Assembly: GCF_008802355.1 (NCBI RefSeq)
Contig: NZ_VZRA01000001.1
Span: 380,980 to 444,979, forward strand
Length of the DNA: 64,000 nt
Reading direction: 5' to 3'
DNA from: Oryzomonas sagensis
Lineage (GTDB): Bacteria > Desulfobacterota > Desulfuromonadia > Geobacterales > Pseudopelobacteraceae
The first letter of the stretch is position 1; each line of letters opens with the position of its first letter. The notes under the pieces are model-generated. The model was not told where the DNA came from. It saw only the letters and a list, made by a program, of their open reading frames with translations, and did not search any database. A program made the position numbers and the translations under genes. Of the stretch, positions 9,924-26,934 are shown piece by piece.

Positions 9924-11294
9924 TTACTCGGCCCGGCCGGCACTGAGGCCGAATTCGACGATCTTGCGGTCCAGCGTCTTGCGCGAGATGCCGAGGATCT
10001 CGGCCGTGCGGCTCTTGTGGAAGCCGGTGCGCTTCAACACCGCCTTGATATGTTGCCGCTCCACCTCATCCAGCGCCACCAGGGGGGCCGCCCCATGGGG
10101 GGCGGCCGCGGTCTCGCGGCGCCTCCCGATGGGGAGCAGGGCGGCGGTGATGATGTTGGAACGGGCCAGGATCACGGCGCGCTCCATGACGTTCTCCAAC
10201 TCGCGCACATTGCCGGGCCAATCGTAGTCCATCAGCATCGCCAGGGCTTCATCCTCGAAATCGTGCACCTCTTTCTTCATCTTGGCGGTATAGATATCCA
10301 GGAAGTGGCGCGCCAGCGGTTCGATGTCCTCGCGCCGCTCGCGCAGGGAGGGGAGATTCACGGTTATGACGTTCAGGCGGTAATAGAGATCCTCGCGGAA
10401 ACGGCCGTCCCGAACCTCATTGACCAGGTCCTTGTTGGTGGCGGCGACAAAACGTACGTCCACCTTGCGGGGCCGGGTCGAGCCGACGGCGATGAAGTCC
10501 TTTTCCTGGATGACCCGCAGCAACTTGGCCTGCACCGTCGGGCTGACATCGCCGATCTCGTCCAAAAAAAGCGTCCCGCCGTCCGCCTCCTCCACCAGCC
10601 CCTTCTGATTGATCACGGCGCCGGTAAAGGCACCGCGCACATGCCCGAAGAGCTGGCTTTCCAGCAGGGTATCCGAGAGGGCGGCGCAGTTGAGGGAGAT
10701 ATACGGCTTGCCGGCACGCGGACTGTTGGCGTGGATGGTGCTGGCGATCAGCTCCTTGCCGGTGCCCGATTCCCCCAGGATCAGGATATTGGCATCGCTG
10801 GAGGCGACCTGAAGGGTCAGGTCGTACACCTCGCGAAAACAGGCGCTCCTGAAAACCATTGTTTCGGAACGGCCCGTCCCCCGCTGCAACTCCTTGCGCA
10901 ACATGAGATTTTCGTTGGCCAGCCGGTGATGGTCGAGCAGTCGGTCCAGCACCGTCAGCAGCTTCTCTTTGGGAAACGGTTTGGTGATATAGTCGTAGGC
11001 CCCCAGCTTGATGGCCTGGACCGCATCGTCGATCGTGCCGTGGGCCGTCATGATGACCACCGGCACGTCCGGGCGTTCGCTACGGAGATGTTTGAGAACC
11101 TGGAGGCCGTCCATGTCGGGCATGCGCACATCCTGGAGGATCACATCGCACTCCGCGGCATCCGACGCCTTTACCCGCTTCAGAAGCTCGTTGCCGCGCA
11201 AAAAGGTCTCGACCTGATAGCCGTTCGCACTCAGGAGCTTATCAAGATAGCGGAGAATATCCGCTTCATCATCACATACAAACACAGTTGGCAT
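9924..11294 (-). CDS. NtrC-family sigma-54-dependent response regulator
   Basis: 456 residues in three domains. The receiver has the acidic pocket DDE (8-10) and phosphoacceptor Asp55. The AAA+ domain has Walker A GESGTGKE (174-181) and the sigma-54 contact loop GAFTGA (221-226). The C-terminal Fis-type helix-turn-helix is at about 420-449. All residues needed for open-complex activation are present. It is the first gene of a minus-strand operon with the sensor kinase and is divergent from hybS, with 355 bp between starts. Because that interval contains a near-consensus -24/-12 promoter facing the hydrogenase, I infer this is its activator. Confidence 0.93.
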   Translation of the reverse strand: MPTVFVCDDEADILRYLDKLLSANGYQVETFLRGNELLKRVKASDAAECDVILQDVRMPDMDGLQVLKHLRSERPDVPVVIMTAHGTIDDAVQAIKLGAYDYITKPFPKEKLLTVLDRLLDHHRLANENLMLRKELQRGTGRSETMVFRSACFREVYDLTLQVASSDANILILGESGTGKELIASTIHANSPRAGKPYISLNCAALSDTLLESQLFGHVRGAFTGAVINQKGLVEEADGGTLFLDEIGDVSPTVQAKLLRVIQEKDFIAVGSTRPRKVDVRFVAATNKDLVNEVRDGRFREDLYYRLNVITVNLPSLRERREDIEPLARHFLDIYTAKMKKEVHDFEDEALAMLMDYDWPGNVRELENVMERAVILARSNIITAALLPIGRRRETAAAPHGAAPLVALDEVERQHIKAVLKRTGFHKSRTAEILGISRKTLDRKIVEFGLSAGRAE

Positions 11295-11649
11295 AGGACA
11301 TGCTCCTTATTCACGCGGGTGGCGTCGCTCCCCCTTTGCCCCCTGCGAGACCGGCGAGCGGACGAGCTCGCAATCTCTCTGTTGAACTATGGAGTGGCTG
11401 TTTTTCCCCCTGTGGGAACAGAGGGAAGCGGAGAGGACTGCCTGGGACAAAAAGATACATCATGTGCCAAAAAGACGCAACCGTTGTTTTGTTTTGTCGT
11501 CTACCCGCCTGGCCGCAAACACAACGAATTCAGCAATTATAAACAGTTGCAGCAAGTCGCTCCAAAAAGCAAGATTGGCACGCCTGTTGCCGTATACTAC
11601 AAGGTTTTTAACCAGCCACATACTCAAGTACATGACAGCGGAGGATGCA
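11295..11649. other. Divergent control region between the regulator gene and hybS
   Basis: 355 bp without a gene. It contains the sigma-54 promoter at 11575-11590. An imperfect inverted repeat at 11398-11421 (CTGTT and CCC arms, complementary to GGGAACAG) lies about 165 bp upstream, where an enhancer would sit. The short palindrome CGAGCTCG lies around 11364-11371. No open reading frame here looks coding. Confidence 0.5.
11575..11590 (+). promoter_or_regulatory. Sigma-54 (-24/-12) promoter of the hyb operon
   Basis: TTGGCACGCCTGTTGC matches the consensus TTGGCACG-N4-TTGC exactly, with GG and GC twelve bases apart. Transcription would start near 11602, leaving a leader of about 48 bases before the hybS start. 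An NtrC-type activator gene is divergent from it. Confidence 0.85.
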
Positions 11650-12762
11650 ATGACAAAAGAGGGCCTTTTCCCCGGCGTTACCCGTCGAGACTTCATGAAG
11701 ACCTGCATGACCGTATCAGCCATGCTGGGGCTTCCCTACGGGATGGTTACCAAAGTTGCCCAAGCGGCCCAGAAGAGCGACAACAGGCCAGCAGTAATCT
11801 GGCTCCATTTCCAAGAGTGCACCGGTTGTTCGGAGTCACTGCTGCGTTCGACGCATCCAACCGTCTCCAACCTGATCCTCGACATGATCTCCCTGGACTA
11901 CCACGAGACCCTCATGGTCGGCTCCGGACATCAGGCCGAAAAATCCCTGACCGACTCCTTGCTGGCCAACAAAGGAAACTATATCCTGGTCGTCGAGGGC
12001 GCCATCCCCACCAAGGACAACGGCATCTACTGCAAGGTCCACGGTAAAACGGCTCTGGATTCGCTGAAGCATGCCGCCGAGGGCGCTGCCGCCATCATCT
12101 CCATGGGCACCTGCGCCAGCTACGGCGGTATCCAATCCGTCGGCCCCAACCCCACCGGCGCCGTGGGGGTACGCGACATCGTCAAGGACAAGCCGATCAT
12201 CAACATCCCCGGCTGCCCTCCCAACCCTTACAACTTCCTTTCGACCGTTCTCTACTACGTAACGTTCAAAAAGCTGCCCGAACTGGATCAGATGGGCCGC
12301 CCCAAATTCGCTTTCGGCCGCCGGATCCACGAGCACTGCGAACGCCGCCCCCATTTCGACGCCGGCCGTTTCGCCCGCGCCTACGGCGACGAGGGGCACA
12401 GCCAGGGGTACTGCCTCTACAAACTGGGCTGCAAGGGACCGGCCACCTATGCCAACTGTTCGGTGCTGCGCTTCAACGATGTGGCGGTCTGGCCGGTTTC
12501 CGTGGGGCACCCCTGCATCGGCTGCACCGAGCCGGACCTGCTTTTCAAAACCGCCATCGCCGACAAGGTTCAGATTCACGAACCGACGCCGTTCGATAGC
12601 TATGCTCCGATCGACCTGAAGGAAAAAGGCAAGGGTCCCGATCCTCTGACCACCGGCGTCATCGGTCTTGCCGCCGGCGCCGCCATCGGTGCGGGTGTCA
12701 TGATGGCCAAGAGGCTGCCGGATGGTCCGGAGAAGGGAGATGACCATGGGAAAACCGAGTAG
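11650..12762 (+). CDS. hybS: [NiFe] uptake hydrogenase small subunit, Tat-exported
   Basis: 370 residues from ATG 11650 with GGAGG five bases upstream; the frame is open much further upstream but that part is promoter DNA. The twin-arginine signal TRRDFMK (11-17) precedes a hydrophobic stretch. FeS ligand motifs ECTGCSES and HPCIGCTEP, plus a histidine/cysteine-rich middle, match the three-cluster small subunit that passes electrons from the NiFe site. A C-terminal helix (about 336-356) anchors it in the membrane, with the enzyme facing the periplasm. It is the first gene of hybS-hybA-hybB-hybL and overlaps hybA by 17 bp. Confidence 0.95.
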   Translation: MTKEGLFPGVTRRDFMKTCMTVSAMLGLPYGMVTKVAQAAQKSDNRPAVIWLHFQECTGCSESLLRSTHPTVSNLILDMISLDYHETLMVGSGHQAEKSLTDSLLANKGNYILVVEGAIPTKDNGIYCKVHGKTALDSLKHAAEGAAAIISMGTCASYGGIQSVGPNPTGAVGVRDIVKDKPIINIPGCPPNPYNFLSTVLYYVTFKKLPELDQMGRPKFAFGRRIHEHCERRPHFDAGRFARAYGDEGHSQGYCLYKLGCKGPATYANCSVLRFNDVAVWPVSVGHPCIGCTEPDLLFKTAIADKVQIHEPTPFDSYAPIDLKEKGKGPDPLTTGVIGLAAGAAIGAGVMMAKRLPDGPEKGDDHGKTE

Positions 12763-13684
12763 ACGCCAGTTCCTCAAAATCATGGGCGCCACCGGCGCGG
12801 CCCTGCTGGCCGGCAAGAAGGCTGCCGTGGCCAATGAGGGGCACAAGATCAACAATGAAACCATCGGCATGCTGTACGACGCCACCAAGTGCGTCGGCTG
12901 CAAAGCCTGCATGTCTGCCTGCAAGCGGGTCAACGGCGATTACGGCAGCCTCTCGTACGAGCGCGCCAAATTCGACACCGACGGCCTGTGGGATGCCCCC
13001 GAAGACCTGTCGGGGAGTACCCGCACCCTGATCAAGCTCTTCAAGCAGTCCGAACAGGAGTGGTCCTACGTCAAATACTCCTGCATGCACTGCCAGAAGC
13101 CGTCCTGCGTTTCGGTCTGCCCGGTTGCCGCCATGACGCGCGATCCGGAAACCGGCATCGTGGATTACAACAAGAATACCTGCATCGGCTGCCGCTACTG
13201 CCAGGTCGCCTGCGCCTACAACATCCCCAAATTCCAGTGGGACCGCGCAATCCCCCAGATCGTCAAATGCGATCTGTGCAAGAACACCAATCTGCCGAAG
13301 AAGGGGATCAGCGCCTGCGCCGAGGTCTGCCCGGCCGGCGCGATCATGTTCGGCAAACGCAAGGATCTCCTGGAAGAGGCAGAAAAACGGCTGCGGGAGA
13401 ATCCGGGCAAGTACATCAACCACATCTATGGCGCAAACGAACTCGGCGGCACCAACCATCTCTATCTCGCCAGCATGCAGTTCAACAAACTGGGCCTGCC
13501 GACGCTCAAGGACGAGGCGCCCGCCGAATTTTCGGAAAAGATCCAGCACACCATCTACAAGGGCTTCATCGCCCCGGTGGCGCTCTACAGCACGCTCTGC
13601 TTCATCGCGTTGAAAAACATGAAAAAACACGGCGGGGAAGAGGGCGGGCATGACACCAATACCGACAAGGGGGGCCATCACTGA
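12746..13684 (+). CDS. hybA: Hydrogenase-associated 4Fe-4S ferredoxin-type subunit HybA, Tat-exported
   Basis: 312 residues from ATG 12746 (GGGAG six bases upstream; ATG 12740 is too close). It starts with a twin-arginine signal, SRRQFLK, and an alanine/glycine-rich hydrophobic region. Four cysteine groups are visible: CVGCKACMSAC, CMHCQKPSCVSVC, CIGCRYCQVAC and CDLC with CAEVC. These are the ligands of four [4Fe-4S] clusters. A C-terminal hydrophobic segment may anchor it. HybA proteins carry electrons between the small subunit and the membrane quinone-reactive subunit HybB, encoded next. Confidence 0.93.
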   Translation: MGKPSRRQFLKIMGATGAALLAGKKAAVANEGHKINNETIGMLYDATKCVGCKACMSACKRVNGDYGSLSYERAKFDTDGLWDAPEDLSGSTRTLIKLFKQSEQEWSYVKYSCMHCQKPSCVSVCPVAAMTRDPETGIVDYNKNTCIGCRYCQVACAYNIPKFQWDRAIPQIVKCDLCKNTNLPKKGISACAEVCPAGAIMFGKRKDLLEEAEKRLRENPGKYINHIYGANELGGTNHLYLASMQFNKLGLPTLKDEAPAEFSEKIQHTIYKGFIAPVALYSTLCFIALKNMKKHGGEEGGHDTNTDKGGHH

Positions 13685-14973
13685 TGGGACACGATGAGTA
13701 CCAGGTACATGAAGCGAAGATCTTGACCCCCTCGTTCATAGTTCTTCTGACCTTGACCCTGATCGGGTTCGCCCTGATCGCGCTCCGCTTCATCAAGGGG
13801 ATCGGCGCCGTATCCAACATGAGCGACGGCTACCCCTGGGGCATCTGGATCACCTACGACGTCGCCACCGGCACGGCCATCGCCTGCGGCGGCTACGCCA
13901 TGGCGATCCTGATCTACATCCGCAACCGCATGCACTACCACCCCATGATCCGTTCCGCCATCCTGACCAGTATGTTCGGATACGGACTGGCCGGTTTTTC
14001 GGTCATGGTGGACGTGGGGCGCCCCTGGAACGCCTACAACTTCTTCGTTCCTTCCAAGTGGCAGGTAAACTCCGCCATGTTCGAAGTCGCCGTCTGCGTC
14101 ATGGCCTACACCACGGTTCTGATCATGGAATTTCTGCCCGCCATCCTGACGACGCTGGAAAAGACCGAATGGAAGACCTTGCAGCATATGCTGGATCTGG
14201 TATACGGCCGCCTCGGCATGGAGCGTCCCGAACGGATCGGCGATCGGCTCGACAAGGTCAAGGAACTGGCGGCCTGGGCTCGCCCCCGGCTCGACAAGGT
14301 TCTGATCTTCATCATCGTCCTGGGCATCACCCTGCCGACCATGCACCAGTCGTCGCTCGGCTCGCTCCTTTTGATCGCATCGACCAAGCTGCACCCGCTG
14401 TGGCATACCGGCTTCCTGCCGCTCCTGTTCCTGATCAACTGCATGTATATCGGCTACTCCATCGCCATTCTGGAATCGGTCCTCTCATGCTACGCTTTCA
14501 AACGTCCCTTCGAGACCAAGGAGCTTTCGGGGCTGGCACGCATCATCCCCTTTCTGACGGTCATCTGGCTCTGCGTCGTCATCGGCGACCTGGCATGGCG
14601 CGGTCAACTGGGCAAAGCGCTCTCCTTCGACTTCTACTCGCGCTTCTTCCTGCTCGAGTTCTGCCTGATCGCCTGCGGCTCCCTGCTGTTGTTCAGCAAA
14701 CGCAAACGGGAATCCGTCCGCTGGCTGTTCGTTTCAGCCGCCCTGATCGTGCTGGGCGGGGCGCTGTACCGTTTCAACGTCTATCTGATCGGTTTCAACC
14801 CCGGCAAAGGGTGGCATTACTTCCCGGCGCTGGCCGAAGTGATGATCACGGTCGGCATCGTTGCCTTCGAGATCCTGGGCTACCAGGTGCTGGTCAAGAT
14901 TCTGCCGGTCCTGCCGAAACTGCACACCCGTGAACAGCACGCAGCAGGGCACCCCATGGGTGAAAAGGCGTAA
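13684..14973 (+). CDS. hybB: Hydrogenase membrane subunit HybB (NrfD/PsrC family)
   Basis: 429 residues, nearly all membrane-spanning (about nine to ten helices). It is a polytopic quinone-interacting subunit with the GYPWGIWITYDV motif near the N terminus that is typical of HybB/NrfD proteins. It has no haem-binding histidine pairs of the cytochrome b type, as expected for this class. The start overlaps the hybA stop in a TGATG junction. It should link hydrogen oxidation in the periplasm to menaquinone, possibly in a charge-translocating way. Confidence 0.93.
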   Translation: MGHDEYQVHEAKILTPSFIVLLTLTLIGFALIALRFIKGIGAVSNMSDGYPWGIWITYDVATGTAIACGGYAMAILIYIRNRMHYHPMIRSAILTSMFGYGLAGFSVMVDVGRPWNAYNFFVPSKWQVNSAMFEVAVCVMAYTTVLIMEFLPAILTTLEKTEWKTLQHMLDLVYGRLGMERPERIGDRLDKVKELAAWARPRLDKVLIFIIVLGITLPTMHQSSLGSLLLIASTKLHPLWHTGFLPLLFLINCMYIGYSIAILESVLSCYAFKRPFETKELSGLARIIPFLTVIWLCVVIGDLAWRGQLGKALSFDFYSRFFLLEFCLIACGSLLLFSKRKRESVRWLFVSAALIVLGGALYRFNVYLIGFNPGKGWHYFPALAEVMITVGIVAFEILGYQVLVKILPVLPKLHTREQHAAGHPMGEKA

Positions 14974-15037
14974 GCCAAGATACAATCGCTCTATGTTGAT
15001 GGATTCAATACATAAAAACCGATAACGGAGGAAATAC

Positions 15038-16717
15038 ATGGCCCGCATTACCCTTGACCCGATCACCCGTATCGAAGGTCACCTGAGAATTGATGCAGAA
15101 GTAAACGGTGGCGTCGTCACCAATGCCTGGTCGTCCGCCCAGATGTGGCGCGGCATCGAAACCATCCTGAAAGACCGCCCTCCCCAGGATGCCTGGATCT
15201 ACGCCCAGCGTTTCTGCGGCGTGTGCACCACGGTCCACGCCATCTCCTCGATCCGTTCCGTGGAACACGCCCTCAAGGTCGATGTCCCGCTGAACGCCCA
15301 GTACATCCGAAACATCATCATGGCCCAGCATTCGGTGCAGGACCATATCGTCCACTTCTACCACCTGTCCGCCCTGGACTGGGTGGATGTGGTCTCGGCC
15401 CTCAAGGCCGACCCCAAGAAGACCGCCCAACTGGCCCAGTCCATCTCCAACTGGCCGGGCAACAGTGAAACCGAATTCAAGGCCGTCCAGCAGAAGTTGA
15501 AATCCTTCGTGGAAACCGGACGCCTCGGCATCTTCGCCTCCGGCTACTGGGGCCACCCGGCCATGAAACTGCCGCCCGAGGCCAACCTCATGGCGGTTGC
15601 CCATTACCTCAAGGCCCTGGATTATCAGCGCAAAGCCGCCCAGGCCATCGCCATTCTGGGGGGCAAGAACCCCCACATCCAGAACCTGTGCGTCGGCGGT
15701 GTCGCTACCGCCATCAACATGGAAAACCTGGCCACCCTCAACATGGAGAAGATCGCCTCACTGAAGACCCTCATGACGGAGACCCGCGACTTTGTCCAGC
15801 AGGTCTACTATCCGGACATGGTGGCCATCGCCTCCATCTACAAGGATTGGTTCAAATACGGCCGCGGCGTGGTCAACTACCTGGCCGTGCCGGAGATGCC
15901 CGAGGACACCAAGAACACCAAGTTCGCCCTGCCGGGCGCCATCATCAACGGCGGCGACATCAAGAAGGCACGCATCGTCACCAACCACCAGGACCTGGAC
16001 CTGATCGCCAACATCAAGGAAAACGTGTCCCACGCCTGGTACGAAGGAAACGGCACCCTGCATCCATGGGACGGCGAGACCAAACCGAACTACACCGACT
16101 TCCAGGACAACGGCAAATACACGTGGTGCAAGGCTCCCCGCCTGGACGGCAAACCGGTTCAGGTCGGTCCGCCGGCACAGCTGTTTGCCGCCTATGCCGG
16201 CGGCAACGAAAAGGTCCGGAAACTGGTGGACGCAAGCTGCGCCAAGATCGGCGTCGGCGTGAACGACCTGCACTCCACCATGGGCCGTCTCGGCGCCCGC
16301 GCCATCCGTGCCCATCTGATGGCCGACTACTCTCTGGAGTATCTGGACAAGCTGGTGGAAAACGTGGGCAAAGGCGACAAGGTCTACGCCAATCCCACCG
16401 AGATCCCCAAAGGCGAGTACAAGGGCGTCGGTTTCCACGAAGCGCCGCGCGGCACCCTGTCTCACTGGATCGTGATCGAAAACCGCAAGATCAAGAACTA
16501 CCAGGCCGTCGTTCCCTCGACCTGGAACGCCTCGCCGCGTGACGACAAAGGTGCGCTCGGCCCGTATGAGGCCTCGTTGGTCGGCAACCCCGTGGCGCAG
16601 GCCGACAAACCGTTGGAAGTGCTGCGGACCATCCACTCCTTCGACCCTTGTATCGCCTGTGCGGTGCATACCATCGATCCGGAAGGGAAAGAGATCACGA
16701 ACGTCAAGGTGATGTAG
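15038..16717 (+). CDS. hybL: [NiFe] uptake hydrogenase large (catalytic) subunit
   Basis: 559 residues. The N-terminal nickel ligands are in RFCGVC (Cys60, Cys63) and the C-terminal ones in DPCIACAVH (Cys538, Cys541). The 15 residues after His544 form the tail cleaved by the maturation protease after nickel insertion. The DPITRIEGHLRI start is a family hallmark. It has no export signal of its own and would travel with the Tat-targeted small subunit. GGAGG precedes the ATG. It lies 64 bp after hybB and is followed by an unusual 223-bp gap before its likely protease. Confidence 0.96.
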   Translation: MARITLDPITRIEGHLRIDAEVNGGVVTNAWSSAQMWRGIETILKDRPPQDAWIYAQRFCGVCTTVHAISSIRSVEHALKVDVPLNAQYIRNIIMAQHSVQDHIVHFYHLSALDWVDVVSALKADPKKTAQLAQSISNWPGNSETEFKAVQQKLKSFVETGRLGIFASGYWGHPAMKLPPEANLMAVAHYLKALDYQRKAAQAIAILGGKNPHIQNLCVGGVATAINMENLATLNMEKIASLKTLMTETRDFVQQVYYPDMVAIASIYKDWFKYGRGVVNYLAVPEMPEDTKNTKFALPGAIINGGDIKKARIVTNHQDLDLIANIKENVSHAWYEGNGTLHPWDGETKPNYTDFQDNGKYTWCKAPRLDGKPVQVGPPAQLFAAYAGGNEKVRKLVDASCAKIGVGVNDLHSTMGRLGARAIRAHLMADYSLEYLDKLVENVGKGDKVYANPTEIPKGEYKGVGFHEAPRGTLSHWIVIENRKIKNYQAVVPSTWNASPRDDKGALGPYEASLVGNPVAQADKPLEVLRTIHSFDPCIACAVHTIDPEGKEITNVKVM

Positions 16718-16753
16718 TCGTCACGGAGCAACTCTCGCACCAGAAGCACAATG

Positions 16754-16825
16754 GGCGCTGACAACAGTGAAGAGACTTAGAGCACACGAGTCGCATGTTC
16801 CTGTTGTCAGTCGCCTTTGTGCTCT
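16754..16825 (+). other. Two interleaved inverted repeats between hybL and its protease gene
   Basis: Arm A1 (16754-16767, GGCGCTGACAACAG) is complementary to A2 (16801-16815) with one extra base. Arm B1 (16779-16786, AGAGCACA) lies in the A loop and is perfectly complementary to B2 (16818-16825), just after A2. The order A1-B1-A2-B2 allows either alternative hairpins or a pseudoknot in RNA. No T-run follows, so it is not a classical terminator. Confidence 0.55.
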
Positions 16826-16940
16826 TTGTGTCTTTGGCAGGGGCTGTAACGTGCTATAAACGAGTGAAGCGGGATGGCAGCTCAATCCCAGCCCATAGTA
16901 GTCTGAAACGACCTCTTAGTGATGGAAAAGGACAATTACG

Positions 16941-17420
16941 ATGAAAACACTTATCTTCGGCGCCGGCAACCTGCTCCTCTCCGATGAAGGCTTTGGGGTC
17001 CACTTTATTGAGTACCTGCAGAAACACTACGTTTTCCCCGACGACGTCACCCTGTACGACGGCGGAACGCTCGGCATCATGGTCTGCCACATGCTGGAGG
17101 AAGCCGACCAGGTCTTTCTGGTGGACGTCATCGAGGCCACGGGCGAGCCGGGAGATATCTACCGCTACGAGAAGGAGGACTTCATGCTGGGCAAACTGCC
17201 CATCAAGATGTCGCCCCACCAGATCGGCATCCAGGAGGTGCTGGCGCTCTCCGAGATCCGTGATCGCTGTCCCGAGAAGGTAACCCTGTTCGGCATCATC
17301 CCTGCCTCCTACGAAGCGGGTGCCGAATTGTCGCCCCTGTTGGCCGGGAAGCTTCCGGGACTGGCCGAACTGGTTGTTGCCGAGATTACGGCCTCAGGGA
17401 GCCCCGTTGAAAAGTGCTGA
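16941..17420 (+). CDS. hybD: Hydrogenase maturation endopeptidase (HyaD/HybD family)
   Basis: 159 residues, the usual family length. The GAGNLLLSDEGFGVH start contains the conserved Glu (DEGFG) and the following region holds VDVIEA, providing nickel-sensing acidic residues. HybD-type proteases clip the C-terminal tail of the large subunit once nickel is in place. Position right after hybL points to that protein as substrate. AAAGGA precedes the ATG. Geobacter literature calls the equivalent gene hybP. A second protease gene at 20250 serves the second hydrogenase. Confidence 0.9.
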   Translation: MKTLIFGAGNLLLSDEGFGVHFIEYLQKHYVFPDDVTLYDGGTLGIMVCHMLEEADQVFLVDVIEATGEPGDIYRYEKEDFMLGKLPIKMSPHQIGIQEVLALSEIRDRCPEKVTLFGIIPASYEAGAELSPLLAGKLPGLAELVVAEITASGSPVEKC

Positions 17421-17761
17421 TTGCCGCCCCCGGCGGAGTGACAGCCGCCGAGGGGAGTTCGTTCATCGCGGAGACAAAAGGACTTTAGCAATCCTGTCCA
17501 TGTAAAACACCCGCGCCTCATGTCCATCCCGCCGCAGCCGGACGCTCCGGAAACGTATCCCGGTCGGTCGATTCACCGGCCACGGCGGTGACGCAGCAAT
17601 CCCATAATCTCTTGCACGTTGCCGACAAACCGGCACAAGAGTGCGGTTCCCTGCACGAATCGATCGACGGCCTCAGCGGCGCGGTCATCGCCACCGCCGA
17701 GGCCGTCCATGAGGCATGCGGCATTGCCGACCGGCTCTGACCACGACACAAAGGAGGCGCC
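17421..17761. other. Intergenic region between the two hydrogenase operons, with one doubtful short ORF
   Basis: 341 bp. No clear sigma-54 or sigma-70 promoter stood out, though a promoter for the second hydrogenase would be expected here. A GTG-initiated 50-codon frame (17588-17740) ends 21 bp before mvhG. It contains several His, Cys and Ala residues but has no ribosome site, so I do not call it a gene. Confidence 0.4.
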
Positions 17762-18766
17762 ATGCCAACCCTCAAACCAAAACTCGCCATGTACTGGGCC
17801 GCATCCTGCGGCGGTTGCGAGATCGCCCTGGCAAACATCAACGAAGCGCTCCTTGAGGTCGATGCCCACTTCGATTTCATGTTCTGTCCCTGTCTCCTGG
17901 ACACCAAACGGGCGGATATCGAGGCGTTGCCCGACAAGGCGATCTTCCTGACCCTGTTCAATGGCGCCCTGCGGACCGAGGAAAACCTGGAGATGGCCGA
18001 ACTGCTGCGCCGCAAGTCCCAACTGTTCGTCGCCTTCGGCGCCTGCGCCGCCAGCGGCGGCATCCCGGCCCTGGCCAACCAGCACGGCATCGGCCATGTG
18101 CTCGAAACCGTTTTCCGCACCTCGGCAAGCGCCGATAACCCGCAGGAGTTGATCCCGGGGGCAACCTCTCCCGTACCGGGCGGTGAGCTGGAGTTGCCGG
18201 CATTCCTCCAACGGGTGCTGGCCGTGCACGAGGCCGTGACGGTTGACTACACCATGCCGGGCTGCCCCCCCGAGCCGGAACAGATCGTCGCCGTCATCCG
18301 CCACATCGCCTCGGGCAAACCGCTGCCGGAAAACGGCACGCTGCTCGGCTGCACGGCCCGGGCCGTCTGCGACCAATGCGGCCGCGAAAAGCGCGGTTCC
18401 CTGGCCGCCCGCCTGATACGCCCTTTTGAGGCGCTTCCCGAGGCTGGCTGGTGCCTGGCCGAACAGGGATTCCCGTGCATCGGTACGGCCACCCACGGCG
18501 GGTGCGGCGCCCTCTGCCCCGCCGTCGCCATGCCCTGTACCGGCTGCTACGGCGCCCTCGACCAGGATGCCGATCCCGGCGCAGCCGCGCTGTCCGCCCT
18601 GGCCGCGGTCGTCGATCCCGGAGCGTCCGGCGGCAAGGCGGAAGCCGATATCCACGCCCATCTGCACGGCGCCCTGGCCGGCGTGGCCGATCCGCTCGGG
18701 ACCTTTTATCGCTACACCCTGGCAACGACCGTGGTTGCCGACCGCCGCCCGGAGGTTGAACCATGA
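17762..18766 (+). CDS. mvhG: Cytoplasmic [NiFe] hydrogenase small subunit, MvhG type
   Basis: 334 residues with no Tat signal, so cytoplasmic, unlike hybS. Cluster motifs include CGGCEIAL near the N terminus, GACAASGG, a middle CPPEPE and a C-terminal cysteine-rich stretch (GFPCIG, CGALCP, CTGCYG). These fit the F420-non-reducing (methyl-viologen) hydrogenase small subunit that carries electrons to an HdrA partner. The ribosome site AAAGGAGG is strong. The stop overlaps the next start (ATGA). It heads the six-gene set mvhG-mvhA-protease-hdrA-mvhD-tusA. Confidence 0.9.
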   Translation: MPTLKPKLAMYWAASCGGCEIALANINEALLEVDAHFDFMFCPCLLDTKRADIEALPDKAIFLTLFNGALRTEENLEMAELLRRKSQLFVAFGACAASGGIPALANQHGIGHVLETVFRTSASADNPQELIPGATSPVPGGELELPAFLQRVLAVHEAVTVDYTMPGCPPEPEQIVAVIRHIASGKPLPENGTLLGCTARAVCDQCGREKRGSLAARLIRPFEALPEAGWCLAEQGFPCIGTATHGGCGALCPAVAMPCTGCYGALDQDADPGAAALSALAAVVDPGASGGKAEADIHAHLHGALAGVADPLGTFYRYTLATTVVADRRPEVEP

Positions 18767-20253
18767 ACCAACGCATCACCATCGACCCCATCACCCGCCT
18801 TGAGGGGCACGGCAGGATCGAGATCTTTCTGGACGACGCCGGCGAGGTGGTTTCCGCCTACTTTCAGGTTCCCGAGCTGCGCGGCTTCGAGTCGTTCTGC
18901 GTCGGCCGCCAGGCCGAGGAGATGCCCAACATCACCAACCGCATCTGCGGGGTATGCCCCGAAGCCCACCACATCGCCGCGGCCAAGGCCCTCGACGAAC
19001 TGTTCGGGACCCCCTGCCTCCCCGCGGCGGCCCGGATCCGGGAGTTGATCTACAGCGCGTTTTTCGTCACCGACCATACCACCCATTTCTACTGCCTCGG
19101 CGGACCCGATTTCATCGTCGGCCCCGATGCCCCCAAGGAAGAGCGCAATATCCTCGGCGTGATCCGCAAGGTCGGCCTGGATGCCGGCAAGGCGGTCATC
19201 GCCTGCCGGGCGCGTAATCACGAGCTGATCAAAAAACTCGGCGGCCGGGGCGTCCATCTCTGCGGCGCCCTGCCCGGAGGCTGGAGCGTGGCGGTCACCC
19301 CGGAGATCGCCGATGAGGCGCGGCAGATCGCCCGGCAGAACATCGAGTTCGCCCTGTTCTCCCTGGAAACCTTCCATAGGATCGTCCTGGGCAACGCGGC
19401 CTACCGGGACCTGGTGCAGGGCGACCTCTACGCCCACCAGACCTATTCCATGGGCACCGTGGACGCCCATAACGCCCCGAACTTCTACGACGGCACCATC
19501 CGGGTCGTGGACCCGGCCGGCAACGAGTTCACCCGCTACCGCCCCCAGGAGTACCTGGACCATATTGCCGAGCACGTGGAGCCGTGGACCTACGTCAAGT
19601 TCCCCTACCTGAAGGAGATCGGCTGGAAAGGGTTCGTGGACGGTCCCGCGAGCGGCGTCTACCAGGCAACCCCCCTGGCGCGGCTCAACGTGGCCGACCG
19701 GATGGCGACGCCCCGCGCCCAGGCCGAGTTCGAACGGTTCTTCGACGCCTTCGGCTGCCGCGGCACCGGCCCGGGCGGCCGCAATAGCCCGGTTCATCAT
19801 CGGCTCGCCACCCACTGGGCGCGTCTGATAGAGTTGCTCTATGCGGCGGAACGGATGCAGGAGCTGGCCGACCACCCCGACCTGTGCGACCCGAAGGTGC
19901 GACAGGCCGTGTCGTGTCGTGCCGGTGTCGGTATCGGTTCCGTGGAGGCCCCACGCGGGACCCTGACGCACCATTTCACTTGCGATGAGCACGGCATCCT
20001 CACCAGCGTCAACCTGGTGGTCGGGACGACCAACAACAACGCCCCCATCGGCATGTCCATCGCCAAGGCCGCCAAGGGGCTGATCCATAAGGGCGTAGTC
20101 AGCGACGGCATCCTCAACCGGGTCGAGATGGCGTTCCGCCTGTACGATCCCTGCTGTTCCTGCGCAACCCACGCCATCGGCACCGCGCCGCTGGAGGTCA
20201 CGGTTCGCCGCTCCGACGACGGCACCATTCTCGACCGGATCAGCCGGGGGTGA
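18763..20253 (+). CDS. mvhA: Cytoplasmic [NiFe] hydrogenase large subunit, MvhA type
   Basis: 496 residues. Nickel ligands are ICGVC (Cys62, Cys65) and DPCCSCATH (Cys464, Cys467, His470). A 26-residue tail after His470 should be removed by a maturation protease, and such a gene is next. The DPITRLEGHGRI start is shared with HybL, but the length and the EMPNITNRICGVCPEAHH context are those of the group 3 (cytoplasmic) enzymes. It overlaps mvhG by four bases and the protease gene by four, so the genes are translationally coupled. Confidence 0.93.
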   Translation: MNQRITIDPITRLEGHGRIEIFLDDAGEVVSAYFQVPELRGFESFCVGRQAEEMPNITNRICGVCPEAHHIAAAKALDELFGTPCLPAAARIRELIYSAFFVTDHTTHFYCLGGPDFIVGPDAPKEERNILGVIRKVGLDAGKAVIACRARNHELIKKLGGRGVHLCGALPGGWSVAVTPEIADEARQIARQNIEFALFSLETFHRIVLGNAAYRDLVQGDLYAHQTYSMGTVDAHNAPNFYDGTIRVVDPAGNEFTRYRPQEYLDHIAEHVEPWTYVKFPYLKEIGWKGFVDGPASGVYQATPLARLNVADRMATPRAQAEFERFFDAFGCRGTGPGGRNSPVHHRLATHWARLIELLYAAERMQELADHPDLCDPKVRQAVSCRAGVGIGSVEAPRGTLTHHFTCDEHGILTSVNLVVGTTNNNAPIGMSIAKAAKGLIHKGVVSDGILNRVEMAFRLYDPCCSCATHAIGTAPLEVTVRRSDDGTILDRISRG

Positions 20254-20732
20254 TGATGGTGGTCATCGGCCTGGGATCGCCGTTTCTCACGGATGACAGT
20301 GTCGGCCCCCGGGTCGTCCGGGAACTTGCCGGGGAGGAGCACCCCGGCGTCCGTTTTGTGGAGGCCCATGCCGGCGGCCTGTTGCTGTTGGAGGAGCTGT
20401 CCGGCACCCGGGGTGCCATCATCATCGATGCGTTGCTCGACGAGAACCTCCCCCCGGGCGAGGTGGTCGTGAGCGGCATCCAGAGGGCATCCCACAATGC
20501 GGCATGCAGCCACGATTGCGGTCTCCCCGAGGCGCTCGACATCGGCCGGGCCATGGGGATGCCGCTCCCCGACGACTCGGACATCAGCCTGGTGGCCGTG
20601 GTCGCCAGGGATGTCACCACATTCAGCGAAGCTCTTACTCCCGAGGTTGAAGCGGCCGTACAGCGGGCCTGCACCGCCGTCCGCTCCATCCTCGCCCGGA
20701 AAAATGCGGGGTCACCCGCGGAGGCGTCATGA
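20250..20732 (+). CDS. Second hydrogenase maturation protease
   Basis: 160 residues. GLGSPFLTDDSVG at the N terminus contains the conserved acidic metal ligand region of HyaD/HycI-family peptidases, and IIIDALLDE supplies the second acidic site. GTG 20250 gives the overlap with mvhA; ATGs at 20253 and 20256 are equally possible starts. It lies directly after mvhA, so it most likely processes the MvhA tail. The stop overlaps the hdrA start. It is clearly distinct in sequence from the protease at 16941. Confidence 0.85.
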   Translation: MMMVVIGLGSPFLTDDSVGPRVVRELAGEEHPGVRFVEAHAGGLLLLEELSGTRGAIIIDALLDENLPPGEVVVSGIQRASHNAACSHDCGLPEALDIGRAMGMPLPDDSDISLVAVVARDVTTFSEALTPEVEAAVQRACTAVRSILARKNAGSPAEAS

Positions 20733-22666
20733 ACAAGCAACCCAAAACCGCCGTCATCCTGTGTACCTGCAGCGGCATCATCACCGAGAAGATTGATTGG
20801 GACACGGTACGGGCCCACCTGGCCGAACACCCGGACAAACCGGTCGTCACGACCGATGAGCTGGCCTGCGGTGCCGAGAATCTGGAAAAACTGGCCGCCT
20901 GGCTGAAGGAAGAAAAGCCGGAGCGGGTCGTGGTTGCGGCCTGTTCGCCGCGGGAGCACGAGAGGACCTTTCGCACCCTCCTGGCCTCGGCCGGCATCAA
21001 CCCCTATTACCTCCAGATGATCAACGTCCGCGAACAGGTGGCGTGGGTTACCGCCGATCCCGCCCAGGCGACGCGCAAGGCGGCACGCCTGATCGGCGCG
21101 GCCCTGAAGCGGGTCCGGCACCACCGGCCGCTCGTGGAGCGCCGCGTCCCGGTACGGACCGACGTAGCCGTCATCGGCGCCGGCCCGGCCGGCATCCAGG
21201 CGGCCCTGACCCTGGCCCGGGCCGGCCGCAGGGTGACGCTGATCGAAAGGGAACCCTTTTTCGGCGGCATGCCGGTGCGCTTCGAAGAGCTGTTCCCCAA
21301 CCTGGAGTGCGGTCCCTGCCTGCTTGAGCCGGGCATGGGCGAGCTGCTCCACGGGCCCGAAAGCGAGCACATCAAGCTCCTCACCCTGACGGAGGTGACC
21401 GAGGTCAAGGGGAGCTTCGGCAACTGGCAGCTCTCCCTGCGCCAACAGCCCCGGTACGTGAATCCCGAACTCTGCATCGGCTGCATGGTCTGCGCCGCCG
21501 TCTGCCCGGAACGCCGGGAAAACCCCTGGAACTGCGGCGGCGAACTGGCTGCCGTGGATGGCCCGTTTGTGGGCGCGCTCCCCAACCTGCCCCATGTGGA
21601 TGCCACCCGCTGTCTGAAATTGAACGGTCAGGAATGCGGGGCCTGCCTGGCCGAATGCCCGGTGGAGGGCGCCCTTGACTTCGGCGACACAATCCGTGAT
21701 AGTGTGGTGGAAGTTGGCGCCATCATCGTGGCCACCGGGGCCGAGGAGCTACCGGTCGTCCCGCCCGCTTTCGCGGGTAAGGACAATGTCTTCTCCGCCT
21801 ATGCCTTCGAGCGGCTGCTGGCCATGACCGGTCCCAGCGGCGGCGAACTCGTCAAAGGGGACGGTTCCGCTCCCGCTTCCCTGGCCATCGTACAGTGCGC
21901 AGGGTCGTTCGACGACGCCGTCAGCTACTGTTCGGGCACCTGCTGCCAGGCGGCCCTGAAATATGCCCATATCGCCGCCGCAAAACAGGAGGGGCTGACC
22001 GTCACCCGCCTGATCAGGGAACAGGTGGTTCCCGGGATCAACGCCGCCCGCCTCTTCGGCCACGATCACAGTCATGTGGTCCGCTATGGCGGGCTCGGTG
22101 ACCTGACGGTGGCCGAAACGCCGAATGGGCGTGTTATCGTCTGCGGATCGAACGGCGCCGAGGTCCCCGCGGACATGATCGTGCTCTGCGGGCCCACGGT
22201 GCCCGGCTCCGGAACGACGCAAACGGCACGCCTCCTGGAACTGGGCCTGGACGACGCCGGCTTCATCGCTCCGATTCATGCCCTCTCCGGCTCCTTTCTC
22301 AGCCCGCTCAAGGGTGTCTATCTGGCCGGCACCTGCCGCGGGCCGGGGGACATACGCGAGGCCTTTGCCTCGGGTACCGCGGCGGCCGGCGTTGCGCTCT
22401 CGGAACTGGTGGAGGGGCGCGACCTGACGGTCGATCCCCAGGTGGCGGTCGTGGATGCGGAGCAATGCGCCGGGTGCAAGAGCTGCATCAGGGTCTGCCC
22501 CTACAAGGCCATCTCCTGGGATGAGGCCACCAAGGCTGCCGATATATCGGACATTCTCTGCCGGGGCTGCGGCACCTGCGTGGCGGTTTGTCCGGCGGGC
22601 GCCATTACGGCCCAGGGGTTTTCCCGCGCCATGCTGCGCGCCGAAATTGAGGGGGTGCTATCATGA
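20729..22666 (+). CDS. hdrA: HdrA-like FAD/4Fe-4S protein
   Basis: 645 residues. An N-terminal domain with ILCTCSG and ELACG is followed by an FAD-binding thioredoxin-reductase-like domain (GAGPAG at 150-155). An inserted FeS segment starts at Cys249 (CIGCMVC) and continues with a second cysteine group (CGACLAECP). The C-terminal ferredoxin domain has CAGCKSCIRVCP (from 580) and CRGCGTCVAVCP. HdrA subunits split electron pairs at flavin in methanogens and in some bacteria. Here it sits between MvhGA and MvhD, the usual electron-delivery partners, but no hdrB or hdrC is present in the window. The acceptor is therefore open. Confidence 0.88.
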   Translation: MNKQPKTAVILCTCSGIITEKIDWDTVRAHLAEHPDKPVVTTDELACGAENLEKLAAWLKEEKPERVVVAACSPREHERTFRTLLASAGINPYYLQMINVREQVAWVTADPAQATRKAARLIGAALKRVRHHRPLVERRVPVRTDVAVIGAGPAGIQAALTLARAGRRVTLIEREPFFGGMPVRFEELFPNLECGPCLLEPGMGELLHGPESEHIKLLTLTEVTEVKGSFGNWQLSLRQQPRYVNPELCIGCMVCAAVCPERRENPWNCGGELAAVDGPFVGALPNLPHVDATRCLKLNGQECGACLAECPVEGALDFGDTIRDSVVEVGAIIVATGAEELPVVPPAFAGKDNVFSAYAFERLLAMTGPSGGELVKGDGSAPASLAIVQCAGSFDDAVSYCSGTCCQAALKYAHIAAAKQEGLTVTRLIREQVVPGINAARLFGHDHSHVVRYGGLGDLTVAETPNGRVIVCGSNGAEVPADMIVLCGPTVPGSGTTQTARLLELGLDDAGFIAPIHALSGSFLSPLKGVYLAGTCRGPGDIREAFASGTAAAGVALSELVEGRDLTVDPQVAVVDAEQCAGCKSCIRVCPYKAISWDEATKAADISDILCRGCGTCVAVCPAGAITAQGFSRAMLRAEIEGVLS

Positions 22667-23142
22667 GTTGCCAAACAATGCCCAACGCAGCAGCACACCC
22701 CGCCCCGAAGATGATGAGCGACGGCGTCCCGGGCGAGGTCAGGGTCGTGGCCTTTCTCTGCAACTGGTGTTCCTATGCCGGAGCGGACAAGACCGGCATG
22801 AACCAACTGCCCGTCCCTGACGAACTGTCGGTCGTGCGCGTCATGTGTTCGGGCCGGGTCGAACCGACCCTGATTCTGGAGACGTTCCGGAAGGGTGCCG
22901 ACGGGGTGATGGTGCTGGCCTGTCACCCGGGCGACTGCCACTACAAGGAGGGGAATCTGCGGGCCTTCTGTCGCGCCGAACTGTTGGAACGGATGATGCC
23001 CCAACTCGGCGTCGATCCGGCGCGTTTCTATTTCGATTACGTTTCCGCGGCAGAGGCGGAGAAATTTTCCCAGGCGACGAACGACTTCGTCGCCTCCATT
23101 CGCGCGCTGGGCGGCACGGCTCCGGGACGATACGCAAAGTGA
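22663..23142 (+). CDS. mvhD: MvhD-type [2Fe-2S] subunit linking hydrogenase to HdrA
   Basis: 159 residues, usual for MvhD (about 140-160). It has the conserved cysteine pattern FLCNWCSY, MCSGR and ACHPGDCHY, which binds the iron-sulfur cluster that carries electrons from MvhAG to HdrA. The first 20 or so residues are extra and poorly structured. The start overlaps the hdrA stop by four bases. Some bacteria fuse this domain to HdrA; here it is separate. Confidence 0.9.
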   Translation: MSCQTMPNAAAHPAPKMMSDGVPGEVRVVAFLCNWCSYAGADKTGMNQLPVPDELSVVRVMCSGRVEPTLILETFRKGADGVMVLACHPGDCHYKEGNLRAFCRAELLERMMPQLGVDPARFYFDYVSAAEAEKFSQATNDFVASIRALGGTAPGRYAK

Positions 23143-23544: not shown

Positions 23545-24663
23545 TCAGTCATCGCGGACTTCCTCGAGCAACTCTGCCGCCACGCCCCCCTCCTGTTCCA
23601 GCAGCATGTCGAAGGGAGGCAGGTTGTGATCGAGCAGCATCCGCAGGATGCGTGCCTTGAGGATACTTTTCCGGGGGGCATCGGCATGCCTGAAAAAGGC
23701 GCGGATCAGCGATTCCACCGATTCCATCGCGTCCCCCTTGATGTCCATCACCGTCCCCTCCTTGGAGAGGGCGAAGAAGGCGGGGTAACTGCCGTCGGGC
23801 TGAAAATAGCTCATCACCGTGCGCGTCGGCTCCTCGCCCAGCACCGCGCGCACGGCAGCGATGATCTCGTTGAGGGCGGCGATCAGCGCCGGCAGCTTAT
23901 CGTTCAGGGAGATGATGATATCCAGCCCCACCTGGAGTTGCTCCATGCGATCGAGGAAATCGCCGATCAGATCGCCCTGGATGAGGCCGCCGTGCTGGGG
24001 AGCCAGCATGATCGGCTGCGGGTCCAGTGCCCTGATCCTCCGGACCGCCAGCCGGATGGCATCGTTGCTCGGCATGTAGAGCTGATGGAAGGCTTTGATG
24101 CCCGCCCAGTTGGTCGCGTCGGCCCAAAGCCCCGAGGCGGCGATCCCGCCGAACAGGTCGCCGGTAAAGAGTATCCGCGATTCCAGGTCGTATACCATGC
24201 AGGCGCCCCGAAAATGGCAGAACGGGGTCGGAATGAATTGCAGGCGGTGCCCCGAGGGGAGCGAGATGCGCATATTCCTGAAACGCTCCACGGGACGGAA
24301 ATCCCTGCCTTGCAGGCCGTTCAGACTGACCAGCCGCCAGGTATCCTCGCTGGCGAGAAAAAGAGCGTGGGGATTGAGCTTGGCCAACAGCGGCAGGCTG
24401 CCGACCACGTCCGGGTCCTGGTGGTTGACGAACAGCATGTTGACCTTTGCGATGTCGCCGGCAGCGCCGACCACCTTGGCCACGACCGTGTCGAAATCCG
24501 AGGTCGGGCCCGGGTCCATCAGCATGGCGGCATTCTGGCCGCCGCCGTTGAACAGCCTCAGGTAACTGTTGCGATTCAAAAACGATTTACTGCCCGTCCC
24601 CACCCAAAAGATGCCGTCGCTGATCTCCACCGCCTCGTCAAGGTTCTCCGTCCCTGCTGCCAT
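23545..24663 (-). CDS. Oxygen-binding di-iron (ODP/flavodiiron-like) metallo-beta-lactamase-fold protein
   Basis: 372 residues from the ATG at 24663 (GGGGGG six bases upstream; ATG 24678 is an alternative). The first 250 or so residues have the flavodiiron beta-lactamase fold: NHQDPD (His81, Asp83, Asp85), His149, Asp168 and His223. The canonical His after the last Asp is Val86 here. No flavodoxin domain follows. The last 110 or so residues form an extra domain with an amphipathic helical pattern. ODP-type proteins bind or reduce oxygen and can act in oxygen sensing. It is convergent with the hydrogenase operon. Substrate and ligand set are uncertain. Confidence 0.75.
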   Translation of the reverse strand: MAAGTENLDEAVEISDGIFWVGTGSKSFLNRNSYLRLFNGGGQNAAMLMDPGPTSDFDTVVAKVVGAAGDIAKVNMLFVNHQDPDVVGSLPLLAKLNPHALFLASEDTWRLVSLNGLQGRDFRPVERFRNMRISLPSGHRLQFIPTPFCHFRGACMVYDLESRILFTGDLFGGIAASGLWADATNWAGIKAFHQLYMPSNDAIRLAVRRIRALDPQPIMLAPQHGGLIQGDLIGDFLDRMEQLQVGLDIIISLNDKLPALIAALNEIIAAVRAVLGEEPTRTVMSYFQPDGSYPAFFALSKEGTVMDIKGDAMESVESLIRAFFRHADAPRKSILKARILRMLLDHNLPPFDMLLEQEGGVAAELLEEVRDD

Positions 24664-24722
24664 GCCCGTTCCCCCCATGATCGTCTTGTGCGGCGCCTTT
24701 GCGACAAGGCGCCCTCCTGGTG

Positions 24723-25215: not shown

Positions 25216-26934
25216 CTATACCGGGGCCTCCGCCAACCCGGCGGCCGCCTCGTCGCCGATCCCGCCGAACTGTCCGTTGATATCCTCGGCCCGGTGCAGG
25301 GCCGAACTGATGTTGGGCAGGATATTACGCGCCCCCAGGAGATGGGGCAGGTTCGAGGTGTAGATCAATCTTTTGGGCTGGCCCCGGGTGCCGCACAGGA
25401 GCAGCGTCCGCCCCGATTCGCGGAGCTTTTCGTTGAATTGTTCGATGGCATACAGGCCCGTGGCGTCGATGGCGGTCATATAGCGCAGCCTCAGGATAAC
25501 GATCGGTTGCAGACGCTCCACCGAATTGGCCATGCGGGTCAGTTTTTCCGCCGCGCCGAACAAAAGCGGCCCCTGCACGTGAAACATGCTGATGTAATGG
25601 GGGATGCTGTGATCCTGCACGATGTGAGCCTTTGCCTTTTCGATGGCCTCGGCCGTCAGGGGCGCCACCACGGTGGTGCGCGAGACCTGGTAGATGTACA
25701 GGAGCGCCGCCAGGGTCATGCCCACTTCCACGGCGATGGTGAGGTCGGCCGCCACGGTCAGGACGAAGGTGATCAGCCAGACGGATATCTCTTTCCGGTT
25801 GAGGCGCAGGATCATGGGTATCTCGTGCCACTCGCCCATGTTGTAGGCCACGACGAACAGCACCGCAGCCAGGGTGGCAAGGGGGATGAAGCGGGCCAGC
25901 GGCGCGGCGAACATGATGATGCAGAGCAGGGTCAGGGCATGGATAATACCGGAGAAGGGAGAGCGCGCCCCGGAACGAATGTTGGTGGCGGTGCGGGCAA
26001 TGGCGCCGGTTACCGGAATGCCGCCGAACAGCGGCACCGTCAGGTTGGCGACCCCCTGGGCCACCAGTTCCACATTGGAGTTGTGGCGGTCGCCGCTCAT
26101 GGAATCGGCCACCACCGCCGAGAGCAGACTCTCGATAGCCGCCAGGAGCGCCACGGTCAGGGCCGAGGGAAGCAGCGGAATAATCAACTCCTGGCGAAAC
26201 TGGGGGATCTGCAGATGGGGCAAGCCGGTGGGGATGCCGCCGAATTTGCTGCCGATGGTCTCCACCGGGAGATCCAACAGGGCGACACAGGCCGTGGCCC
26301 CCAGCAGGGCGACGATCGAACCGGGTATGCGGCGGGTTAAGCGCGGTACGATCAGGATGACGGCCAGGGAGGCCACGGCCAGCACAATGGCGGCCAGGTC
26401 AGCCCTATCCAGGTTCAGGACGATGAAACGCATCCGCTCGATGAACTCGCTGGGCACCTTGGCGGCCACCCGCAGTCCCAGGAAATCCTTGAACTGGGTG
26501 GAGGCTATCAGGATGGCGATACCGTTGGTAAAACCGATGACAACCGGCCTGGGTATGAATTTGACCGCATTCCCCAGGCCGGTCAGCCCCAGGAAAATCA
26601 GGATTACGCCGGCCATCATGGTGACCATCAGCAGGCCCGAAAGGCCGTGCCTGGCGATGATGGCGGCAATTACCACCACGAACGCCCCGGTCGGACCGCC
26701 GATCTGGGTCCGCGAACCGCCCAGGGCCGAGATCAGGAAACCGGCGATGACCGCCGTATAGATGCCGGCCTGGGGCGTGACGCCGGAGGAAATGCCGAAG
26801 GCCATGGCCAACGGCAGGGCCACCAGGCCGACCGTGATGCCGCTGGTCGTGTCGGCCGCCAGGTCGGCCCTCGTATAGCCCTTGAGCGCCTGGACGGACT
26901 TGGGCAGCCATTGCGACAGCTTGCTCTGCTTCAT
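25216..26934 (-). CDS. SulP-family anion transporter with STAS domain
   Basis: 572 residues. About eleven to twelve membrane helices fill residues 20-420 and contain the family motif GLVALPLAMAFGISSGV. A cytoplasmic STAS domain occupies the last 130 residues (ILRLRYMTAIDATGLYAIEQF). SulP proteins carry sulfate, bicarbonate or similar anions; the substrate is not decided by sequence here. No carbonic anhydrase gene is adjacent, which would have suggested bicarbonate. AAAGGA lies about 15 bases upstream of the ATG. Confidence 0.9.
   Translation of the reverse strand: MKQSKLSQWLPKSVQALKGYTRADLAADTTSGITVGLVALPLAMAFGISSGVTPQAGIYTAVIAGFLISALGGSRTQIGGPTGAFVVVIAAIIARHGLSGLLMVTMMAGVILIFLGLTGLGNAVKFIPRPVVIGFTNGIAILIASTQFKDFLGLRVAAKVPSEFIERMRFIVLNLDRADLAAIVLAVASLAVILIVPRLTRRIPGSIVALLGATACVALLDLPVETIGSKFGGIPTGLPHLQIPQFRQELIIPLLPSALTVALLAAIESLLSAVVADSMSGDRHNSNVELVAQGVANLTVPLFGGIPVTGAIARTATNIRSGARSPFSGIIHALTLLCIIMFAAPLARFIPLATLAAVLFVVAYNMGEWHEIPMILRLNRKEISVWLITFVLTVAADLTIAVEVGMTLAALLYIYQVSRTTVVAPLTAEAIEKAKAHIVQDHSIPHYISMFHVQGPLLFGAAEKLTRMANSVERLQPIVILRLRYMTAIDATGLYAIEQFNEKLRESGRTLLLCGTRGQPKRLIYTSNLPHLLGARNILPNISSALHRAEDINGQFGGIGDEAAAGLAEAPV

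Follow-up and report, generated by a model that had tools for sequence, protein, structure and literature searches.

A hydrogenase-HdrA-TusA gene block without HdrBC in Oryzomonas sagensis and its relatives, with a possible link to chemosensory systems

Hydrogenases of [NiFe] group 3c are known from the HdrABC-MvhADG complex of methanogens and are listed in HydDB solely as Hdr-linked bifurcating enzymes (PMC5037454). Here we describe a gene block of this type in Oryzomonas sagensis (order Geobacterales), found in a window of 64,000 nucleotides (NCBI RefSeq assembly GCF_008802355.1, contig NZ_VZRA01000001.1, positions 380,980 to 444,979 of the forward strand; coordinates without a prefix refer to this window). 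The block has the domain order and the ligands of HdrA in common with HdrABC-MvhADG, as well as MvhA, MvhG and MvhD with their metal ligands. However, the locus encodes neither HdrB nor HdrC, the block includes its own protease gene and a TusA with two cysteines, and in relatives it often stands beside chemosensory genes.

HdrA apart from HdrBC is already known: anaerobic methanotrophic (ANME) archaea have more copies of HdrA than of hdrBC (PMC9012536). The ANME paralogs are likewise separated from HdrBC, but their clusters have FdhAB-like, HdrD-like or doubled HdrA genes, while the window block has a hydrogenase and TusA. The Flox/Flx-HdrABC systems of anaerobic bacteria have HdrA and an MvhD-like subunit in common with the block. 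A literature search, covering titles and the openings of abstracts, returned no description of an HdrA-Mvh-TusA block or of a chemosensory cluster that includes an Hdr hydrogenase, and a survey of Geobacter chemotaxis genes (PMC2577667) mentions neither hydrogenase nor heterodisulfide, SirA or TusA. As far as this search shows, what is new is the constant joining of hydrogenase, HdrA and TusA in one block, the additional cysteine of TusA and the chemosensory surroundings. The initial annotation of the window had proposed a variant Mvh-Hdr complex in which something replaces HdrBC; it left out the conserved two-cysteine TusA, an hdrCBA-mvhD cluster elsewhere in the genome, and the chemosensory and cyclic di-GMP (c-di-GMP) neighbours in many relatives.

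The gene block and its cofactor ligands

The block consists of six genes on the forward strand. MvhG, the small subunit of a [NiFe] hydrogenase of group 3c type (17762-18766; VhuG, E 2.3e-59, below the cut-off of the model; PF01058, E 2.7e-23), is followed by the large subunit MvhA (18763-20253; VhuA, E 7.1e-99, also below cut-off), a hydrogenase maturation protease (20250-20732; TIGR00072, E 8.1e-24, over cut-off), HdrA with 645 amino acids (20729-22666; NCBIfam HdrA2, E 4.9e-135, below the curated cut-off of the model) and the [2Fe-2S] subunit MvhD (22663-23142; PF02662, E 2.5e-46; solved chain 9sw2_D, E 1.3e-39). All junctions between these five genes are overlaps of four bases. The gene of the two-cysteine TusA lies directly 3' of MvhD, with its ATG at 23227 and its end at 23451 (PF01206, E 1.3e-17). 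HdrA and MvhD are located where the initial annotation had placed them, and the absence of HdrB and HdrC from the window, also claimed there, holds: none of the 12 places with a CCG domain (PF02754) in the genome falls inside the window, and profiles made from the HdrB and HdrC of the same genome match nothing in it. The ratio of nonsynonymous to synonymous substitution rates (dN/dS), calculated against three congeners, is 0-0.25 for the six genes: all six are under purifying selection.

HdrA has the N-terminal cluster domain, the FAD/thioredoxin-reductase domain and both the inserted and the C-terminal ferredoxin domain. In an alignment of 20 window-type HdrA proteins (numbering tied to 5odc), the N-terminal domain retains C12, C14, C47 and C72 in 20/20 sequences, C194, C197, C390, C401, C405 and C406 are equally constant, and neither ferredoxin domain varies in any of its cysteines. 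In the solved complex, Cys197 serves as a ligand from one HdrA of the dimer to the other (PMC9012536). We considered and rejected a loss of the N-terminal cluster: the cysteine of the IREHC motif is missing, but HdrA of the Methanothermobacter marburgensis type has an aspartate at this position, and the other cysteines are kept. Methanogen HdrA has two markers of bifurcation near the flavin, E356 and K409 (PMC12054007); the corresponding residues of window-type HdrA, E361 and K411, are kept in 19 and 18 of the 20 relatives, respectively. To judge from these residues, window-type HdrA could still bifurcate.

The closest matches of MvhA among solved chains are 9sw2_F, 7t2r_D and 5odc_F. Both CxxC motifs are present (RICGVC and DPCCSC), and 26 residues follow the last motif, DPCCSCATH. 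Regulatory [NiFe] hydrogenases of group 2b (HupUV/HoxBC) have a large subunit without a processed C-terminal extension; the window MvhA differs from them in these 26 residues and in the adjoining protease gene. Among relatives (the wider set of loci described below), DPCxxCxxH is present in 77/77 MvhA copies and RxCGxC in 67/77; the remaining ten are six copies at contig ends and four in which a TGA stands in frame in place of the second cysteine codon. These four MvhA, all from Nitrospirota, have it in the N-terminal CxxC motif (RICGV-TGA-PEAHH; L102:7217-7219, L109:7216-7218, L113:7050-7052 and L128:2682-2684). Each of the four genomes has a selenocysteine tRNA over cut-off, as do 17 of the 22 genomes tested. 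The sequence behind the TGA could fold into a hairpin (-13 to -22 kcal/mol); three relatives with a cysteine codon reach similar values (-16 to -19 kcal/mol), so that this proves nothing. A search of the phylum found one TGA within MvhA in 10 of 32 matching genomes; besides the genome of L102, two of the other nine were read (L244 and L245) and have the TGA at the same site. To our knowledge, selenocysteine in [NiFeSe] hydrogenases is known only from the C-terminal motif.

Conservation without HdrBC and the second hdr locus

Full-length window-type HdrA was found in 22 of 57 genomes searched, the own genome included in both numbers. The gene order MvhG-MvhA-protease-HdrA-MvhD-TusA recurs across 20 neighbourhoods, with TusA in 19/20; one neighbourhood (L071) ends at a contig end, and in another (L063) protease and HdrA are about 4 kb apart. 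The block of L079 (and of L142, on a contig of the same length, 30464) consists of protease-HdrA-MvhD-TusA, with no MvhG or MvhA within 8.5 kb upstream.

In a wider scan, of named genomes, 139 relatives turned up, of which 80 loci were kept, in stretches of at most 20 kb. They span Geobacter kin, Nitrospirae, Acidobacteria, Accumulibacter, Sulfuritalea, Bdellovibrionales, Magnetococcales, Riflebacteria, Spirochaetota and others. Isolates that carry the block include Oryzomonas japonica, Geomesophilobacter sediminis and Geobacter sp. AOG1 (L089, L133 and L158). HdrA and MvhD are present at all 80 loci, the protease at 78, MvhA at 77, TusA at 72 and MvhG at 71 (MvhG is missing mostly at contig ends). 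With single-sequence profiles of the own genome's proteins, HdrB was found at 0/80 and HdrC at 0/80 of these stretches, and profiles of the HydB-like (FloxB-type) and Fe-S proteins had no match in the 80 loci either, among the results listed.

The initial annotation had held that an hdrBC operon elsewhere in the genome, if it copurified with this HdrA, would refute a replacement of HdrBC. In part this is the case: the genome search found an hdrC-hdrB-hdrA-mvhD cluster, at C1:178-182 kb, and its HdrB (C1:178.8-179.5 kb) accounts for two of the 12 CCG-domain places. However, this cluster has its own HdrA and its own MvhD: the genome has two full-length HdrA, only 36% identical to each other, and two MvhD, one of each per locus. 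Downstream of the cluster, a GxxExxY gene is followed by genes for an Fe-S protein and for a HydB/AsrA-like protein, and one frame beside the second hdrA is a candidate for an NAD(P)-binding subunit, with no match to a solved structure. This second locus looks Flox/Flx-type, in contrast to the window set, a hydrogenase without HdrBC. In this canonical hdrCBA cluster, the GxxExxY gene (L023:12215-12640) separates mvhD from the next Fe-S gene.

Could the hdrCBA-mvhD cluster supply the window block with HdrBC in trans, for an ordinary HdrABC-MvhADG complex? HdrBC is encoded in the same genome, a search of 17 genomes of the order with the block found HdrB in 14, and in Methanococcus maripaludis one HdrABC can bind alternative input modules (PMC9012536). 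Nevertheless we consider this very improbable. Apart from the low identity of the two HdrA and the separate MvhD at each locus, HdrB was undetected (E 1e-10) in 16 of 48 block-bearing genomes, for which completeness is not stated (48 of 50 taken from the 80 loci). In the order, where the case is weaker, three genomes have the block and no detected HdrB: G041, rated 100% complete, G028 (90%) and G026 (66%); in G041, which has a single HdrA, HdrB was undetected at 1e-15. The HdrB of a further genome (G051, whose HdrA locus matches that of Geobacter sp. OR-1, L114) is present only as two copies of the N-terminal half on contigs C39 and C47, perhaps by a break in the assembly or in the gene. By gene content, HdrB thus appears dispensable for the existence of the block, yet both often co-occur. 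Together with the retained E361 and K411 and the lack of HdrB and HdrC at all 80 loci, these data support the proposed replacement of HdrBC well at the level of genes, and they support the view of the set as a variant Mvh-Hdr complex not built with HdrBC.

A TusA with an invariant second cysteine

The best candidate for this replacement is TusA. TusA is a general sulfur carrier with a CPxP motif, and the copies linked to the block have the same fold and motif: CPxP is present in 72/72 and a second cysteine, in the context A-D/N-C, also in 72/72. In the window protein these are Cys13 (CPQP) and Cys39 (ADC). The second cysteine aligns with Asp45 of E. coli TusA, so that an aspartate of the family is replaced by an invariant cysteine in the linked copies. 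Asp45 is buried, forms a hydrogen bond with the NH of the active cysteine, Cys19, and is conserved among TusA homologs above about 24% identity (PMC2854127). We inspected 32 PF01206 domains of the own genome and relatives (only matches with an assigned locus): a cysteine at the Asp45 position is found in three, namely the window's own TusA, L209, which is linked to a block, and L212, 11 kb away from the block of G010. None of the 29 unlinked domains has it; the residue there is D (22), A (3), T (2), or L or N. The predicted fold of the window TusA matches E. coli TusA (template modelling score, TM, 0.87 to 3lvj_C); in it, helix 1 begins right after Cys13, and strand 2 ends right before Cys39. 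The two cysteines may be able to form a disulfide. A loose analogy is DsrC, a small two-cysteine protein of unrelated fold that can carry sulfur between redox enzymes.

TusA could instead serve maturation, or supply sulfur for Fe-S or NiFe cofactors, and stay outside the electron flow, which would be in keeping with the general role of the family. We regard this as unlikely: among the proteins examined the second cysteine is exclusive to TusA of the linked type, which argues for a specialised redox role, and the three PF01206 places of the genome are near neither the canonical hdr cluster nor the small subunit of a second uptake hydrogenase (C3:551 kb).

The reading that we favour, with somewhat less than even confidence, is an H2-oxidising HdrA complex that has the two-cysteine TusA instead of HdrBC and serves as a sensory input in many hosts. 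The CPxP cysteine and the adjacent ADC cysteine of TusA would take up the high-potential electrons, in the form of a disulfide, persulfide or trisulfide, and the low-potential exit would stay with the inserted ferredoxin domain of HdrA. We observe directly which genes the block holds and that they are conserved, along with the two cysteines of TusA, the retained cofactor ligands and the gene neighbourhood; the formation of a complex, TusA as acceptor and a sensory output are what we infer from them.

Chemosensory neighbours and the possible role of the block

Many relatives have signalling genes next to the block. The 42 immediate co-directional upstream neighbours have the Pfam domains REC (14), methyl-accepting chemotaxis protein (MCP, 12), GGDEF (8) and Hpt (7), and the 34 downstream ones REC (9), Hpt (9), GGDEF (8), CheW (6), sigma-54 activator (4) and MCP (1). 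Among 71 distal control genes, the numbers are 6 MCP, 5 CheR, 4 REC, 2 CheW and 2 Hpt, and GGDEF is not among the 25 families listed. When neighbours were counted with our own signalling profiles, a co-directional MCP, Che or GGDEF gene was found within 500 bp at 34 of the 65 named loci with 500 bp available on both sides. The profiles were built from proteins of nine loci, which therefore match by construction; the domains of these nine were also assigned by Pfam, with the exception of the CheW of L121, which was checked separately. In the order, 9/18 block loci and 0/18 canonical HdrA loci have such a gene within 500 bp (Fisher, 0.001), and within 6 kb it is 8/16 and 1/16 (Fisher, 0.015); the two sets of loci share 15 of 20 genomes.

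Wsp systems consist of an MCP, a pair of CheW, CheR-TPR, CheB, CheA-REC and a GGDEF output. Near-complete sets that resemble these systems stand beside the block in L121 (block, CheW, MCP, CheB, CheR-TPR, CheA-REC), L131 (MCP, CheB, CheR-TPR, CheA-REC, CheY, block, GGDEF), L134 and others, while the window block has an MCP remnant only. Tll0287-like domains, fused to a kinase or to GGDEF, are found directly upstream of mvhG in two loci (L095:3501-5972 and L161:36-1283).

The MCP remnant of the window is a C-terminus of 67 codons (17537-17737, +; 70% identity by tblastn, with E 2.6e-27 from a tiny search space). At the same place, between hybD and mvhG, congener G003 (L062) has an MCP as an open frame of 333 codons, and congener G002 a weaker remnant. 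Directly upstream and co-directional are the uptake hydrogenase genes hybO-A-B-C-D (11389-17420, +). Divergent from hybO lies an NtrC-type response regulator (9924-11294, -; Pfam REC, Sigma54_activat and HTH_8), and next to it an sCache-HAMP-HisKA histidine kinase (7880-9889, -; Pfam). Sigma-54 promoters before hyb or mvhG were looked for and rejected, as the window has 35 matches with 34.7 expected. On the opposite strand after the TusA gene are an ODP-family protein with a beta-lactamase fold (23545-24678, -) and a sulfate permease with a STAS domain (25216-26934, -).

Gene linkage of this kind is known from H2-sensing hydrogenases: HydDB lists [NiFe] group 2b as kinase-linked and, as putative classes, [NiFe] group 2c as GGDEF-linked and [FeFe] group C2 as MCP-linked (PMC5037454). 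A sensory 3c hydrogenase would thus be a variant on a known theme; linkage to kinase, GGDEF or MCP genes is common to these classes and to the block in relatives, but the block adds the HdrA-MvhD-TusA relay, and its MvhA keeps the C-terminal extension and the protease gene. In many hosts, MCP-CheW-CheA or a c-di-GMP output would then read the redox state of the complex or of TusA, making it a sensor of H2 or redox state; in the window species the MCP has decayed, and the output, if any, would lie elsewhere or be the Hyb system. That an Hdr-type bifurcating hydrogenase was turned into an H2 sensor in many phyla, with electrons from H2 passing via HdrA to the two-cysteine TusA and its thiol or persulfide state being read by chemosensory arrays or diguanylate cyclases, is a tentative proposal in which we place well under even confidence.

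A rival reading, in which we likewise place well under even confidence, is a purely metabolic role, as an oxidoreductase of H2, ferredoxin and TusA persulfide: H2 would reduce ferredoxin while the sulfane sulfur of TusA is reduced to sulfide, or the reverse, and the chemosensory neighbours would hitch-hike or regulate. The catalytic and electron-transfer ligands are retained, MvhA has its extension and its protease gene, TusA is present at 72/80 loci, and the block remains under purifying selection after the decay of the MCP. However, this leaves the co-directional Che, MCP and GGDEF genes flanking the block in several phyla unexplained, given their absence within 500 bp of the 18 canonical HdrA loci of the order, and no sulfur-metabolism family appears in the list for the genes directly beside the block.

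Several observations weigh against an H2-oxidising complex with TusA as acceptor and a role as sensory input. K411 is missing in 2/20 and E361 in 1/20 HdrA, and 8/80 loci have no nearby TusA, seven of them with enough sequence. A co-directional Che, MCP or GGDEF gene within 500 bp is lacking at 31/65 loci; if receivers, kinases and sigma-54 activators are added, block loci and canonical HdrA loci of the order no longer differ (9/18 and 6/18; Fisher, 0.50), and related loci are not independent. The host genomes are rich in signalling genes, as the MCP and CheR among the 71 distal genes indicate, in part because the same clusters extend there. The neighbouring MCPs, mostly with two membrane segments by hydropathy and one with a known ligand domain (L093), may sense something else. 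In the window no Che gene adjoins the block, which has the MCP remnant only, and with its six genes still constrained the block can do without that MCP; the retained ferredoxin domains and a protease-processed MvhA are equally compatible with catalysis. Co-occurrence with a group 1 uptake hydrogenase was also tried as a test for sensing and is uninformative: 35/48 genomes with the block have one, as do 52/57 relatives with or without it.

The decay of the MCP in the window indicates a role that is able to survive without it, while the recurring chemosensory context makes us lean slightly towards sensing; overall, we consider signalling no less likely than metabolic bifurcation as the role of the block. 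If the proposed acceptor is correct, a protein thiol pair would be a defined high-potential partner for HdrA complexes outside methanogens, and if the sensory reading is also true, flavin-based electron bifurcation would be tied to H2 signalling.

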